Below are positions 16,519 through 32,040 of a DNA stretch of 64,000 nt, one piece after another (the first letter of the stretch is position 1; every line of letters starts with the position of its first letter). The notes beneath the pieces are model-generated. The model saw only the letters and a list, made by a program, of their open reading frames with translations. It had not been told where the DNA came from and searched no databases. Both the position numbers and the translations under genes were made by a program. This DNA is from Salinigranum marinum (GTDB taxonomy: Archaea > Halobacteriota > Halobacteria > Halobacteriales > Haloferacaceae), in assembly GCF_024228675.1 (NCBI RefSeq), contig NZ_CP100461.1, positions 3,159,398 through 3,223,397 on the forward strand, read 5' to 3'.

Positions 16519-16591
16519 AGTCCCATGGGGTAGTGGCCAATCCTGTTGCCTTCTGGGGGCAACGACCCAGGTTCGAATCCTGGTGGGACTA
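16519..16591 (+). tRNA. tRNA-Gln (anticodon CTG)
   Basis: 73 nt forming a full cloverleaf. The 7-bp acceptor is AGTCCCA/TGGGACT with discriminator A. The anticodon stem TTGCC/GGCAA encloses the loop TTCTGGG with anticodon CTG at 16553-16555. The T arm is CCAGG-TTCGAAT-CCTGG. No intron is visible and CCA is not encoded. It reads CAG codons. Confidence 0.93.
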
Positions 16592-16742
16592 CATTTTCCG
16601 GCGTTCTAATCTTCACAGACGCGAGCACCGCGCGATGATGCGGGTCACGTGGTCCTGAACGGACGACTGAGACACGGATCAGAACGCCGGATCCACGGTA
16701 ACGCGTCGCGTTCCGACGTATCGCGCGGGTTCGACGATCGAC

Positions 16743-22857: not shown

Positions 22858-23566
22858 GCGCGGTGCTACACCCGTCCATTACGTAGTGGTTCGTGTCGTA
22901 CACCGAGACGGTCGATGACAGGGACCCTGCCGGAACTCGGCGAACGGGGACGGATCGCGGCTGAATACACGCTCCAGTATCAGTATGAGCTTCAGGACCG
23001 ATCATCCGTCGCGGTTGCAGCAGCGCGTATCAGTCAACCTTACAGCGGCGCATCAGTCGATCCGGCTCGACGGAGACGTGCAGCCGCCAGAGCGGGTATG
23101 CCACGTCCTCCCCAGCCGATTCACTCGTTCACTTCGTTCACTCGCTCATCCCTCGCGCGCGAGTCGCGGACCGACGTCCGCGACGTCACGCGCCACCGCA
23201 CCGCGGTCGGCGCGCGACGACCGAGCAGCGCGGGACACGGAGCGTCCCGCTGGCCGGACGGGGCGGGTTCGGCCGCCCCGTAGACGACCGCGGGGAGCGA
23301 GTGAACGTGCGAGGGACGACTGAACGAGTGAGTTGAGCGAACGAGTGAAACGGAGTCGGTTGGTGAGGCGGTGGCGTCATCACCCTGGTGACCGCTCTCG
23401 ACACCGTCCGCTCTCGGACACGAAGGTGAATACTCGCCACACCCGTTCGTAGACACCCAACCGGTACACCGTCCTCCGGTACGAGTCCGACTACCGAACG
23501 GAACGTCCCGCTGAACCGCCGATCGCCCCGGGAACTGTCGGTCGCGGCGGCACCGGCGTCGTCGGT
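22858..23566. other. 709-bp gene-free region
   Basis: No credible gene. The central 276 bp (23100-23375) is the structured repeat element listed separately. Outside it I see only short low-complexity motifs such as GAGTGAACGAG in both orientations. Confidence 0.6.
23100..23375 (-). repeat. Structured non-coding repeat element, copy 1
   Basis: On the minus strand it opens with GCCACCGCCTCACCAACCGA and closes with ATCGGCTGGGGAGGACGTGG, which are inverted copies of each other. Inside are blocks shared with copy 2 at 31681-31907 (GGTGCGGTGGCGCG, CGCGCGAGGGATGAG, CCCTCGCACG, GGCGGCCG), separated by hairpins: GCGGGAC/GTCCCGC, GTCGCGGAC/GTCCGCGAC and CGGGGCGG/CCGCCCCG. No transposase or protein is encoded. 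Either a structured RNA or a non-autonomous mobile element. Confidence 0.75.
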
Positions 23567-28319: not shown

Positions 28320-29384
28320 TCACCAGACGCCCTGGACGCGGTCCATCCAGGTGACGACGACGACGTGCGGGAGGGTGAGTACGGCGATGCCGACGAGGTA
28401 CAGCGCGAGGAGGCCGTCGGGGTCGTCCGCGAGCGCCCCGAGCGACTCCGCCCCGGGCACCACGAGGGCGAGGCCGACGAAGCCGAGGAGCGAGACGGCG
28501 GTCAGCGGCGCGGCGTCGCGGGCGAAGCGTCCGAGCGCGTCCGCCGCGTCGCCCGCGGTGAGCGCCTCGCGCGACCCCGGATCGACGAGCAGGAGGCGGG
28601 CGATGTGCCGGAGCGCGTGCCAGAGGGTGAAGTACAGCCCGACCGCGAGCACCGGCGGGAGGACGGCGAAGAAGACCCACAGCAGCGCGAGTTCGCCCAC
28701 GTCGACGGCCCAGGGGTGGCGTGCCGCCCCACCCCGAACGCGCCACGCGCCGACGCCGACGCCGACGAGCGTGAGCGCGAGGAGACCGCCGCCGGCGACG
28801 AGTCGCGCTGTCGGGGTGAAGAATGGGTCGAGCGCCGCGACGGGACCGCCGAACAGCGCGACGAACGCGCTCGCGACCCGTCGGTACTCGGCCGGGTGGA
28901 AGGCGAGCGGGGCGACCATCGGGAGCCCGCCGCGGACGACGAGCGCGAGGCCGCGTTCGGCCCGGGTGGAGAGGTGCTCGGCGTCGACGAACGCCAACAG
29001 CGCGTAGACGTCGCCCTGTCCCCAGTGGGCCCAGGTGAGGAGGATGAAAAACACCGCGGCCGAGACGGGGTCGAGGAACCACCACGCGAGATAGCCCCCG
29101 CCGGCGACTAGGTAGAGCAGGCCGACGCCGATCATCGACCGCCAGCGGCCGGTCCCGGCGGTTCGGGCGGGCGCGAGGTGGTCGACGGCACCGTGCGGCA
29201 GGCCGAAGACGAGGACGCTCGCGACGAATGGCGCGTAGACGGCCGCGCGGGGGAGGACGGCCACGAGCGGGGCGAGGACGGCCGCAGCGCCCAGGGCGAC
29301 CCACGAGGGGCGGACGACCGCCGCCGAGAGGGTCCGTCGGACGCCGGCTGGCAACGGCTCCGACACCACGGCGCGGGAGCTCAC
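28320..29384 (-). CDS. brp: Brp/Blh beta-carotene 15,15'-dioxygenase
   Basis: Membrane-embedded iron enzyme that splits beta-carotene into two retinal molecules for opsin. 354 residues with some eight to nine hydrophobic helices. Family histidines are visible in VLVFGLPHGAVDHLAP, FFILLTWAHWGQGDVY and LYFTLWHALRHIARLLLVDP, where they would bind the iron. The start is a GTG (29382-29384), 2 bp beyond the stop of the lycopene cyclase gene, so the two form an operon. It stands divergently near bop, a classical arrangement for haloarchaeal rhodopsin biogenesis. Confidence 0.92.
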   Translation of the reverse strand: MSSRAVVSEPLPAGVRRTLSAAVVRPSWVALGAAAVLAPLVAVLPRAAVYAPFVASVLVFGLPHGAVDHLAPARTAGTGRWRSMIGVGLLYLVAGGGYLAWWFLDPVSAAVFFILLTWAHWGQGDVYALLAFVDAEHLSTRAERGLALVVRGGLPMVAPLAFHPAEYRRVASAFVALFGGPVAALDPFFTPTARLVAGGGLLALTLVGVGVGAWRVRGGAARHPWAVDVGELALLWVFFAVLPPVLAVGLYFTLWHALRHIARLLLVDPGSREALTAGDAADALGRFARDAAPLTAVSLLGFVGLALVVPGAESLGALADDPDGLLALYLVGIAVLTLPHVVVVTWMDRVQGVW

Positions 29385-29386
29385 GG

Positions 29387-30220
29387 TCAGCGGCCCCGCT
29401 CGATCGTCCGGGCGTTCTCACGGGGCGTCGCGCCGGCCGGGTCGTCGCCGGTGACGACCGGGGTGCGGTCGGTGCCACCGGCGTCGTCGTCGAGCGTCAG
29501 CCGCCCCCACCGGTGCATCACCCACTCGAACAGCACCAGCCCCTGGACGACGAGGAGGTTCGTCACGAGGAAGAACGTGGCCTCTTCGAGCGGGAGGCCG
29601 AGGATGTCGATCCCCACGGTGAACGTCTCGGAGATGGTCCACACTCCGAGGCCGATGGCGACCCGATCGGCGAACCAGAGGTAGAGCGTCGGAATCGCGA
29701 CCGCGACCGGCCACTCCCGACGCTGTCGGAGGAGGTAGCCGCCGCCGACGCCCCACTGGAGCGCCAACAGCGGACCGGCCCACACGAGGATCGCACCGAT
29801 GTAGTAGCCGGCGGTCGTCGAGAGGAGCGCCGCGCCGGCGACGCTCAGCGCGAGGAAGCCGACGGCCCCGACCAGCCGCGGCGAGAGCCGGGTGTCGCCC
29901 GGCTCGAAGGCGGACGAAAAGCCCATGACGTAGAGGAACAGCCCCGAGAGGACGGGCTGGAGGACGAAGAAGAGGTACTCCTCGACGGGTGCCGCGCCGA
30001 TGCGGGCGACGACGGTCCCCTCGCCGTACCACCAGACGCCCCGTTCGATGAGGAAGTTGTCCCACGGGGTCGTGTAGACGAGCGCGAGCAGCGTGATCCC
30101 GACGAGTCCGGTGAGCGCGACGCGGCGACGGCCGGACGGGAGCGTCGGCGCCGCCAGGACGAGCACCACGAGCGGCGGGAGGACGAACACCAGGTGGAAC
30201 CCCAGGTAGGTGAGCGTCAT
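29387..30220 (-). CDS. crtY: Lycopene beta-cyclase (fused CrtYc/CrtYd type)
   Basis: Cyclises lycopene to beta-carotene, the precursor of retinal. 277 residues from the ATG at 30218-30220. Two homologous halves of three to four helices each; each half carries the conserved acidic signatures: TTPWDNFLIERGVWWYGEGT and PVEEYLFFVLQPVLSGLFLY in the first, PLEEATFFLVTNLLVVQGLV in the second. Membrane enzyme. First gene of the crtY-brp operon. A TATA-like CTTAATCCC (complement of about 30295-30303) lies 75-84 nt upstream, giving a leader of about 50 nt. Confidence 0.9.
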   Translation of the reverse strand: MTLTYLGFHLVFVLPPLVVLVLAAPTLPSGRRRVALTGLVGITLLALVYTTPWDNFLIERGVWWYGEGTVVARIGAAPVEEYLFFVLQPVLSGLFLYVMGFSSAFEPGDTRLSPRLVGAVGFLALSVAGAALLSTTAGYYIGAILVWAGPLLALQWGVGGGYLLRQRREWPVAVAIPTLYLWFADRVAIGLGVWTISETFTVGIDILGLPLEEATFFLVTNLLVVQGLVLFEWVMHRWGRLTLDDDAGGTDRTPVVTGDDPAGATPRENARTIERGR

Positions 30221-30404
30221 CGCTTCGTCCACGTCGTGTCCGTCGGGGCCGGACGGGCGGTCGTCGTCACGGGCGACAGGAAGGATCCGAACGGGATTAA
30301 GGCCACGGCCGATCCGGCCATCCGAGTGGTCATGTACTTCAACTTTTTGGCCGGTACGGAGTTCGACTCGGGAGATCTCAACATTTTTCGGACAGTCTGC
30401 CATC

Positions 30405-30413
30405 AAATATAAG
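30405..30413 (+). promoter_or_regulatory. TATA box of bop
   Basis: AAATATAAG, 29-37 nt ahead of the bop ATG, in the 221-bp divergent region between crtY and bop. It predicts a very short leader, as known for bop of Halobacterium. Confidence 0.7.
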
Positions 30414-30441
30414 TCGCGAAACTCCCTAGCCCCGTTTGGGT

Positions 30442-31182
30442 ATGGTAACTCCAGGTGCAGGTATCGAATCGATATCGCTGTGGATCGGCACGATCGGGAT
30501 GACCCTCGGCACCCTGTATTTCGTCGCACAGGGATGGTCCGTGCGTGACCCCGACCAGCAAGAGTACTACATCATCACCATCTTCATCCCCGCCATCGCC
30601 GCGGCGTCTTACTTCGCGATGGCGACAGGGTTCGGCCTCATCGAGGTGTCAGTCCAAGGGCTCGGGACGCTCGACATCTACTGGGCCCGCTACGCGGACT
30701 GGCTGTTCACCACGCCCCTGTTGCTGCTCGACTTGGCGCTGTTGGCAGGGGCCGATCGGAACACGATCTACACCCTCATCGGGCTCGACGTGTTCATGAT
30801 CGTGACGGGGCTCGTGGGCGCACTGGCCACCGAGGGACAGCTGTTCCGCATCCTCTGGTGGGCGATCAGCACCGGTGCGCTGCTCGTCCTGCTGTACTTC
30901 CTGCTCGGCTCGCTGTCGGAGCAGGCCAGCAGGCAGTCCGGCGAGGTGGGTGCGCTGTTCAGTCGGTTGCGGAACCTGATACTCGTCCTCTGGTCCGCGT
31001 ATCCGGTGGTCTGGATCCTCGGTACCGAGGGCGGCTTCGCGATCATCCCGCTCGGCATCGAGACGGCGGCGTTCATGGTGCTCGACCTCTCGGCGAAGGT
31101 CGGCTTCGGCATCATCCTGCTGCAGAGTCGCGACGTGCTCAGCGCGGCGAAGCCGTCGGGCACTTCGGCGACGGCGGACTGA
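30442..31182 (+). CDS. bop: Bacteriorhodopsin (light-driven outward proton pump)
   Basis: A 246-residue seven-helix retinal protein. Helix C reads [20 protein letters not shown], with R82, D85, W86, T89 and D96 of bacteriorhodopsin numbering all present, which identifies a proton pump and not a halo- or sensory rhodopsin. Helix G has [16 protein letters not shown] with D212 and the retinal-binding K216. The release-group glutamates lie in [18 protein letters not shown] (E194, E204 equivalents). The ATG at 30442 gives an N-terminus [16 protein letters not shown]; a TTG 6 nt upstream is less likely. It follows a good TATA box and ends 41 bp before a T8 tract. Retinal would come from the adjacent crtY-brp operon. 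Confidence 0.96.
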
Positions 31183-31517: not shown

Positions 31518-31680
31518 GCGTGAGTCGAAGCGGGGGGAGGGTAAAGACGTGGCGCCCGTCCTCGGGAGTCGACACTGTGAGGGGGCGACGACGTGCCGGC
31601 CGCACGGTTCGTGAACGGACGTGCGTGGCGACGGGCCGTGACCGAGACCGAACGCGGTGGAGCAGGCAGGGCGACGAGAG

Positions 31681-31907
31681 ACCGCACCCTCCCCAACCAG
31701 TGGCTCGCGGTCGGAGCCGCGAGCAGGCCCCTCGCACGCATCGGTCGCGGCCGGGCGGCCGCGACAGCGCGCGCCTCCCGTGTCACGACACGATGGCACG
31801 GGTGCGGTGGCGCGGTCGGCGCGCCTCCGTGCGCGCCGACGCGCGAGGGATGAGGGCACGACCGAACGGAGTGACGGAGTGCCCGGATCGGCTGGGGAGG
31901 GCGTGGC
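31681..31907 (+). repeat. Structured non-coding repeat element, copy 2
   Basis: Same family as 23100-23375 but in plus orientation and 49 bp shorter. Ends: ACCGCACCCTCCCCAACCAG and ATCGGCTGGGGAGGGCGTGG, inverted. Hairpins: GCTCGCGG/CCGCGAGC, TCGCGGCC/GGCCGCGA, CCCGTG/CACGGG, GTCGGCGCGC/GCGCGCCGAC (perfect 10 bp) and GGGCAC/GTGCCC. Core blocks GGTGCGGTGGCGCG and CGCGCGAGGGATGAG are shared with copy 1; most stem sequences are not. Confidence 0.75.
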
Positions 31908-31925
31908 GTCTCACTGCCCTGGCGA

Positions 31926-32040
31926 CTGTCTCGTCCCGATCACCAGCCGTTCGCCGACGAGTAATCGACTGTCTCGTCTCGACATCAGCCGTTCGCCGAC
32001 GAGTAACCGGCTGTCTCGTCCCGACCACCGACGGCTCGTC
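31926..32040. repeat. Direct repeats of 42-43 bp
   Basis: CTGTCTCGT recurs at 31926, 31969 and 32011, followed each time by CCCGA or CTCGA, and the first two units continue with CAGCCGTTCGCCGACGAGTA. About two and a half contiguous units; no spacers. Confidence 0.8.

Follow-up and report, generated by a model that had tools for sequence, protein, structure and literature searches.

Dispersed structured elements with tandem G·A ladder hairpins in Salinigranum marinum and other Halobacteria

REPs keep the sequence of their stem conserved and are partnered by a Y1 transposase. The elements characterised here resemble REPs and REPINs in being intergenic and palindromic and in occurring as single units or inverted doublets, but their stems are replaced and several high-copy genomes are devoid of Y1_Tnp. 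A RAYT/REPIN link was rejected, as no Y1_Tnp was present in five genomes carrying 16-44 copies (G001, G009, G019, G027 and G030); the number of Y1 transposases does not follow element copy number. An origin as a retroelement or group II intron derivative was also rejected, RVT_1 being found in 0 of 40 genomes. The PATEs of Haloquadratum walsbyi are dispersed, non-coding, palindromic and heterogeneous, are without inverted terminal repeats or target duplications, and are tied to the ends of IS605-type transposons (PMC3119063). The present family is likewise haloarchaeal, dispersed, too short to code, palindromic and without inverted repeats. No association with IS605 ends was seen at 30 TnpB loci, and neither a covarying multi-helix fold nor GA ladders have been reported for PATEs. 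A link to IS605/TnpB was discarded, no convincing element match having been obtained near 30 TnpB loci (best E=0.06). One genome (G019) yielded a single TnpB match yet more than 40 copies of the element. The Salinigranum genome contains 31 TnpB (Cas12f1-like TNB) matches; the small contigs C2-C4 account for about one third, and the spread of the matches over contigs C1-C4 is unlike that of the element.

Twenty-two conserved intergenic transcripts of unknown function, all from Halobacteria, have been reported from an Atacama halite community (PMC7002113). Some of these sRNAs may belong to the present family; the available part of that report contains no description of such a structural family. 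Searches of Rfam 15 at gathering and permissive thresholds returned no match over the element, the sole match in the window being a tRNA-Gln (CTG) gene (16519-16592). The family shares conserved loop motifs and covarying stems with the structured ncRNA families of Rfam 15, but its copies diverge, number in the tens per genome and share no fixed gene context. A literature search that included sequence words, and that covers part of the literature, gave no description of it, in agreement with a preliminary description in which no named family had been recognised. The family is apparently uncatalogued, and there is a substantial chance that this dispersed structured non-coding element constitutes a class of its own.

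The window, that is, the whole 64-kb stretch of DNA analysed, is part of the 4.0-Mb main contig of the 4.9-Mb genome of Salinigranum marinum, the malate dehydrogenase of which is 95% identical to its S. salinum counterpart. The preliminary description reported two copies of an element sharing blocks of sequence in the window, and every block and hairpin that it quoted was recovered in place. On the minus strand, copy 1 starts with GCCACCGCCTCACCAACC (23358-23375) and ends with GGCTGGGGAGGACGTGGC (23100-23117). Each of the shared blocks GGTGCGGTGGCGCG, CGCGCGAGGGATGAG and ATCGGCTGGGGAGG is present once in either copy and nowhere else in the 64 kb, and the stems differ between copies (GTCGCGGAC/GTCCGCGAC at 23163-23184 versus GTCGGCGCGC/GCGCGCCGAC at 31815-31840). 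Chance falls far short of explaining the similarity of the two copies. Across the genome, 22 occurrences of the core GCGAGGGATGAG were counted against none of its reverse, while GGCGGCCG alone is not diagnostic, with 33 matches in the window. A blastn search with copy 1 detected about 40 dispersed copies in the same genome; a covariance model built from 26 aligned copies yielded 73 matches at a threshold of E<0.01 (best E 3.5e-24), and related genomes were also rich in copies.

Alignment of the 26 copies revealed a repeating unit of about 135-140 nt, half of the 276-bp element first delimited, with the consensus GCGGTG-GCGCG-[hairpin P2]-CGCGAGG-GAY-GA-[P3]-GA-RUC-GGYUGGGGAGG-n-GUGG. In DNA form the Salinigranum unit reads GCGGTG-GCGCG-hairpin-CGCGAGGGATGA-hairpin-AATCGGCTGGGGAGG-n-GTGG-nnn-CACCGCCCTGGCGACC. 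The coordinates of the units in the window and of their parts are given in Table 1. The conserved element at copy 1 is some 20-30 nt longer on each side than first delimited (about 23071-23404). The inverted ends ascribed to it are indeed present as sequences, although they are not the termini of a single element; they arise because two units stand head to head. One recognisable unit was found at 52 of 61 chromosomal loci and two at the remaining nine, all in the head-to-head (- +) order. Nine is a minimum, since degenerate second units, as at copy 2, score below threshold. Several copies in the genome (L052, L050, L008 and L057) carry an extra structured module inserted after a GAGG motif, of the form GAGG^TCTTCGTGAGC...GCTCGAAGC-stem-GCTTCGGTGG, which indicates that elements nest in one another at a preferred site.

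Table 1. Positions of the structured units and their component parts in the 64-kb window
Feature	Position	Strand	Basis
Copy 1 main unit (right half of the element first delimited)	23071..23203	-	Covariance model, 120.7 bits
Copy 1 P2, GCGCG-[variable stem GTCGCGGAC/GTCCGCGAC]-CGCGC	23154..23193	-	Fold, covariation
Copy 1 P3, GA-ladder hairpin	23118..23150	-	Ladder scan, fold, closing-pair covariation
Copy 1 conserved G-rich block GGCTGGGGAGG-AC-GTGG	23101..23117	-	Alignment, pattern search
Copy 1 Salinigranum-type 3' end ACCCGCTCTGGCGGCTG, able to pair with GCUGGGGAGG (P4)	23081..23097	-	Alignment
Copy 1 second unit, head to head	23259..23404	+	Covariance model, 68.2 bits
GA ladder inside copy 1 second unit	23321-23349	+	Ladder scan
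Copy 2 main unit	31800..31938	+	Covariance model, 114.2 bits
Copy 2 P2, GTCGGCGCGC/GCGCGCCGAC inside GCGCG/CGCGC	31810..31844	+	Fold, covariation
Copy 2 P3, GGGCAC/GTGCCC plus tandem GA, GAT/ATC closure	31849..31889	+	Sequence, fold
Copy 2 conserved block GGCTGGGGAGG-GC-GTGG	31890..31906	+	Sequence position check
Copy 2 degenerate second unit, head to head	31650..31784	-	Covariance model, 27.2 bits

The 77 comparable P2 segments in Salinigranum all differ in sequence. Their mean MFE was -28.5 kcal/mol, compared with -21.7 kcal/mol when halves were re-paired between copies (best of 100 shuffles: -22.5), and 26 double-sided changes were counted in the helix where 8.9 were expected (0/500). The sense strand folded better in 52 of 80 cases and the antisense strand in 26 (p=7e-6), with 76 G·U pairs in the sense reading against 31 in the antisense. 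Single-copy MFE z-scores were weak and are uninformative in such GC-rich DNA.

P3 is composed of Watson-Crick dinucleotides alternating with tandem G·A/A·G pairs, e.g. GC-GA-AC-[GAA]-GT-GA-GC, and accounts for the purine-rich stretch GAGCGAACGAAGTGAGCGA, which is low-complexity in appearance. In copy 1 it reads GAT-GA-GC-GA-GT-GA-AC-[GAA]-GT-GA-AC-GA-GT-GA-ATC, and ViennaRNA, blind to the alignment, draws the identical alternating ladder. The lengths of 209 distinct P3 segments from many genera (110 of them retrieved from their loci, the others read from pattern-match listings) were quantised at 23, 31, 39 and 47 nt, so that each lengthening of the ladder adds a dinucleotide and a GA step to each arm. 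For the 166 odd-length segments, 92.9% of cells were paired (WC+GU+GA) compared with 80.4% for permuted arms (0/1000), and GC, CG, AT and TA pairs all occur in the dinucleotide columns. A GNA triloop caps 75% of the well-paired copies. The flanking blocks (GAY-GA...GA-RUC) pair too, with counts of T-A 76, C-G 31, T-G 9 and C-A 1 (Fisher p=4e-19). After this closure the sense strand continues into the conserved G-rich block (GGYUGGGGAGG-n-GUGG), which is single-stranded. The ladder score was 6.78 for the sense strand, 2.99 for the antisense and 3.03 for shuffled sequence. Elsewhere in the window two-step ladders occurred at chance level, and three-step ladders were confined to copy 1.

The suggestion that conserved cores are separated by replaced but still paired stems was thus borne out on 77 P2 and 166 P3 sequences, and covariation beyond chance was significant in P2, P3, the GAY/RUC closing pair and P5, the second-domain stem considered below. 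The preliminary description had overlooked the strand-specific tandem-GA ladder of P3 as well as the optional 3' domain of other genera. The GA ladder and the excess of G·U over A·C are confined to the sense strand; selection therefore acts on a single folded strand, namely the folded sense strand. That a fold is kept while its letters change points to a function, most likely as RNA, and a functional RNA role for the family is plausible. In ssDNA, too, sheared GA pairs and the bias towards G·U over A·C would be tolerated. RNA is favoured over ssDNA as the nature of the folded strand, with data that fit both. On balance, a Halobacteria-specific family of dispersed structured elements that work as one folded strand, most probably of RNA, is the reading towards which we lean, somewhat above even probability.

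The 3' portion of the unit differs between genera. The P4 pairing (GCUGGGGAGG/CCGCCCUGGC) holds in Salinigranum, while its 3' arm is absent in other genera. A second domain continuing the unit on its 3' side, with the layout GGGNCTGAAAGGGGC-[P5]-...GACGYAAGCACCGCAG-[GA ladder]-GAGGAGCGCAGCGAG...-[P5']-GGGGCTTTC, was identified in 25 of 194 Halobacteria genomes (15 of 66 genera). Its covarying stem, P5, has a median of 12 uninterrupted pairs, with at least nine in 27 of 35 copies, against a median of two when arms were taken from different copies. The pattern of the second-domain junction gave 0 matches in the Salinigranum marinum genome, the copies of which have CACCGCCCTGGC, a shorter 3' end, in its place. 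Tandem repeats that are short and specific to the locus (period 17-50) lie directly 3' of Salinigranum copies, at 31925-32030 in the window and also at L010, L014, L006 and L022; they were found 3' of 17% of copies versus 4% upstream, an excess that was not reproduced in other genera (8 vs 6 of 100).

A strict pattern comprising the two conserved blocks around P3 matched 145 of 391 Halobacteria genomes, representing 40 of 86 genera, with a maximum of 97 copies in one genome; the reversed pattern, used as a control, gave zero matches in every genome searched with it. None of the 243 genomes sampled from the other classes of this phylum contained the strict pattern, and the family was found neither in 2.9 million viral contigs nor in a phage collection. 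A few copies reside on haloarchaeal plasmids (Halorussus, Halobaculum, Haladaptatus and Natrinema), and in the Salinigranum genome 70 of the 73 matches are on the main chromosome, a depletion from plasmids (binomial p=0.0007). As many haloarchaeal genera are without the family or have few copies, it is dispensable.

At the site of copy 1 the mdh-CPBP interval measures about 725 bp in S. marinum compared with 124-205 bp in three congeners, and at the site of copy 2 about 611 bp compared with 43 bp in one congener, S. salinum being among the congeners compared. These short intervals imply that both copies were either gained here or lost there. Target-site duplications were sought, and the intergenic flanks of the congeners proved too diverged to align. 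In another genome (G065) the copies L320 and L321 share 91.6% identity along 178 bp, and the 5' boundary is sharp. What spread in the past was a unit whose 5' end, at GCGGTG/GGCGCG, is sharp; it travelled alone or paired head to head. Such observations suit a non-autonomous mobile element, the sense strand of which would fold as ssDNA and be moved in trans by a structure-recognising transposase (HUH-like or other), the covariation then reflecting that mobility requires the fold. The high copy number, the patchy distribution, the want of orientation bias or promoter and the invariable head-to-head order of doublets would follow from it, and GNA loops and tandem GA pairs stabilise ssDNA as well as RNA. 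We nevertheless consider this account unlikely, although it deserves first place among the alternatives. No pair among the 61 units in the Salinigranum genome exceeds 82% identity (median 64%), which excludes a recent burst there; the elements are depleted from plasmids and absent from viruses, Y1 transposase counts are unrelated to copy number, and TnpB loci are without the motif.

Retention in place argues further against it. About seven of 37 sampled congener loci lie at the position of a copy in the S. marinum genome, and one more pair is common to two congeners. In orthologous Salinigranum pairs the element can be aligned but the intergenic DNA around it barely can, and in most of seven such pairs P2 is better kept than an equal number of random substitutions predicts. 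Nine genomes of another genus share an almost unchanged copy that lies 20-30 nt downstream of radB, although its adjoining nucleotides cannot be aligned; this copy stands in the sense direction directly after the stop codon in the radB-phoU locus. Beyond the element, towards phoU, the same intergenic region (L270-L285) has T-runs and another GA-ladder hairpin (CGCGCGAGCGGAGCGAGCGCG), which probably represent a transcription terminator region. Sharp-ended duplicates together with conservation in place indicate that the element spread as a unit at times and that at least some copies are selected where they stand.

The radB copy, and the almost exclusively intergenic location of copies in general, might also be explained by a cis-acting mRNA element, such as a terminator, a 3'-end former or a UTR regulator. 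Among 91 copies, with genes called by a simple composition rule, 24 were in divergent, 30 and 21 in tandem and 16 in convergent arrangement, so that all four gene arrangements occur without preference or sense bias. No promoter-like AT peak was detected at a fixed distance upstream of 122 copies, no replication-strand bias along the chromosome was evident (runs test z=0.46), and no T-run follows the 3' end of the element. The lack of orientation preference, promoter signal and run structure speaks against one simple cis-regulatory role, which we hold to be improbable; it is also the main weakness of the RNA reading. Between the two copies in the window (28320-31182) lies a cluster of carotenoid oxygenase-like (Brp/Blh), lycopene-cyclase-like and bacteriorhodopsin-like genes, named from their translations only.

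A classical MITE with terminal inverted repeats is very improbable. The inverted ends of copies 1 and 2 and of other two-unit loci had been taken to fit a non-autonomous mobile element, an interpretation that fails because most loci, 52 of the 61 on the chromosome, are single units without inverted ends. Near-identical copies are wanting in the Salinigranum genome, though some other genera have duplicates, and transposition of dsDNA does not explain strand-specific GA ladders. Identities of at most 82%, with syntenic copies conserved beside unalignable flanks, are not those of a recent MITE, and the reading was rejected on single units and divergence; loci that are under selection as single units largely refute it. 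A chance resemblance among stretches of GC-rich low-complexity DNA, for which the base composition of the genome and the weak single-copy z-scores might be cited, has a negligible probability and is refuted by the empty reversed control, the covariance-model E-values and the covariation tests.

If the favoured reading of a folded strand acting as RNA is adopted, the conserved loop, the G-rich motifs and the rigid GA ladder could form a docking platform for a host protein. Copies, spread by a putative trans-acting route, that landed in transcribed intergenic DNA and were read in the sense direction would be retained, as in the 3' UTR of radB, and might then act on the stability or processing of the carrier transcript, or as small RNAs. 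More speculatively, the high cytoplasmic K+ of haloarchaea could also allow GGYUGGGGAGG-GUGG to form a G-quadruplex of two tiers. We advance only tentatively, at rather less than even probability, a fuller proposal, in which the family would be a new and abundant archaeal class of structured RNA whose modular tandem-G·A ladders are an adaptation to a multimolar-salt cytoplasm. Each genome would contain tens of loci that evolve independently, with selection acting on many of them, and the RNA would have a protein partner; the family is possibly also a new kind of mobile element at the level of RNA or ssDNA.

Should the interpretation hold, many haloarchaeal genomes would carry tens of copies of a folded element uncatalogued until now, and the common GAGCGAACGAAGTGAGCGAG-type sequences of haloarchaeal intergenic regions would be accounted for. 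Its ladder of dinucleotide and tandem G·A steps closed by a GNA loop would represent a new type of hairpin, for which no precedent was found among RNA families. The family could then serve to examine a new RNA-protein system or a new route of transposition, for example in Salinigranum or Halorussus.
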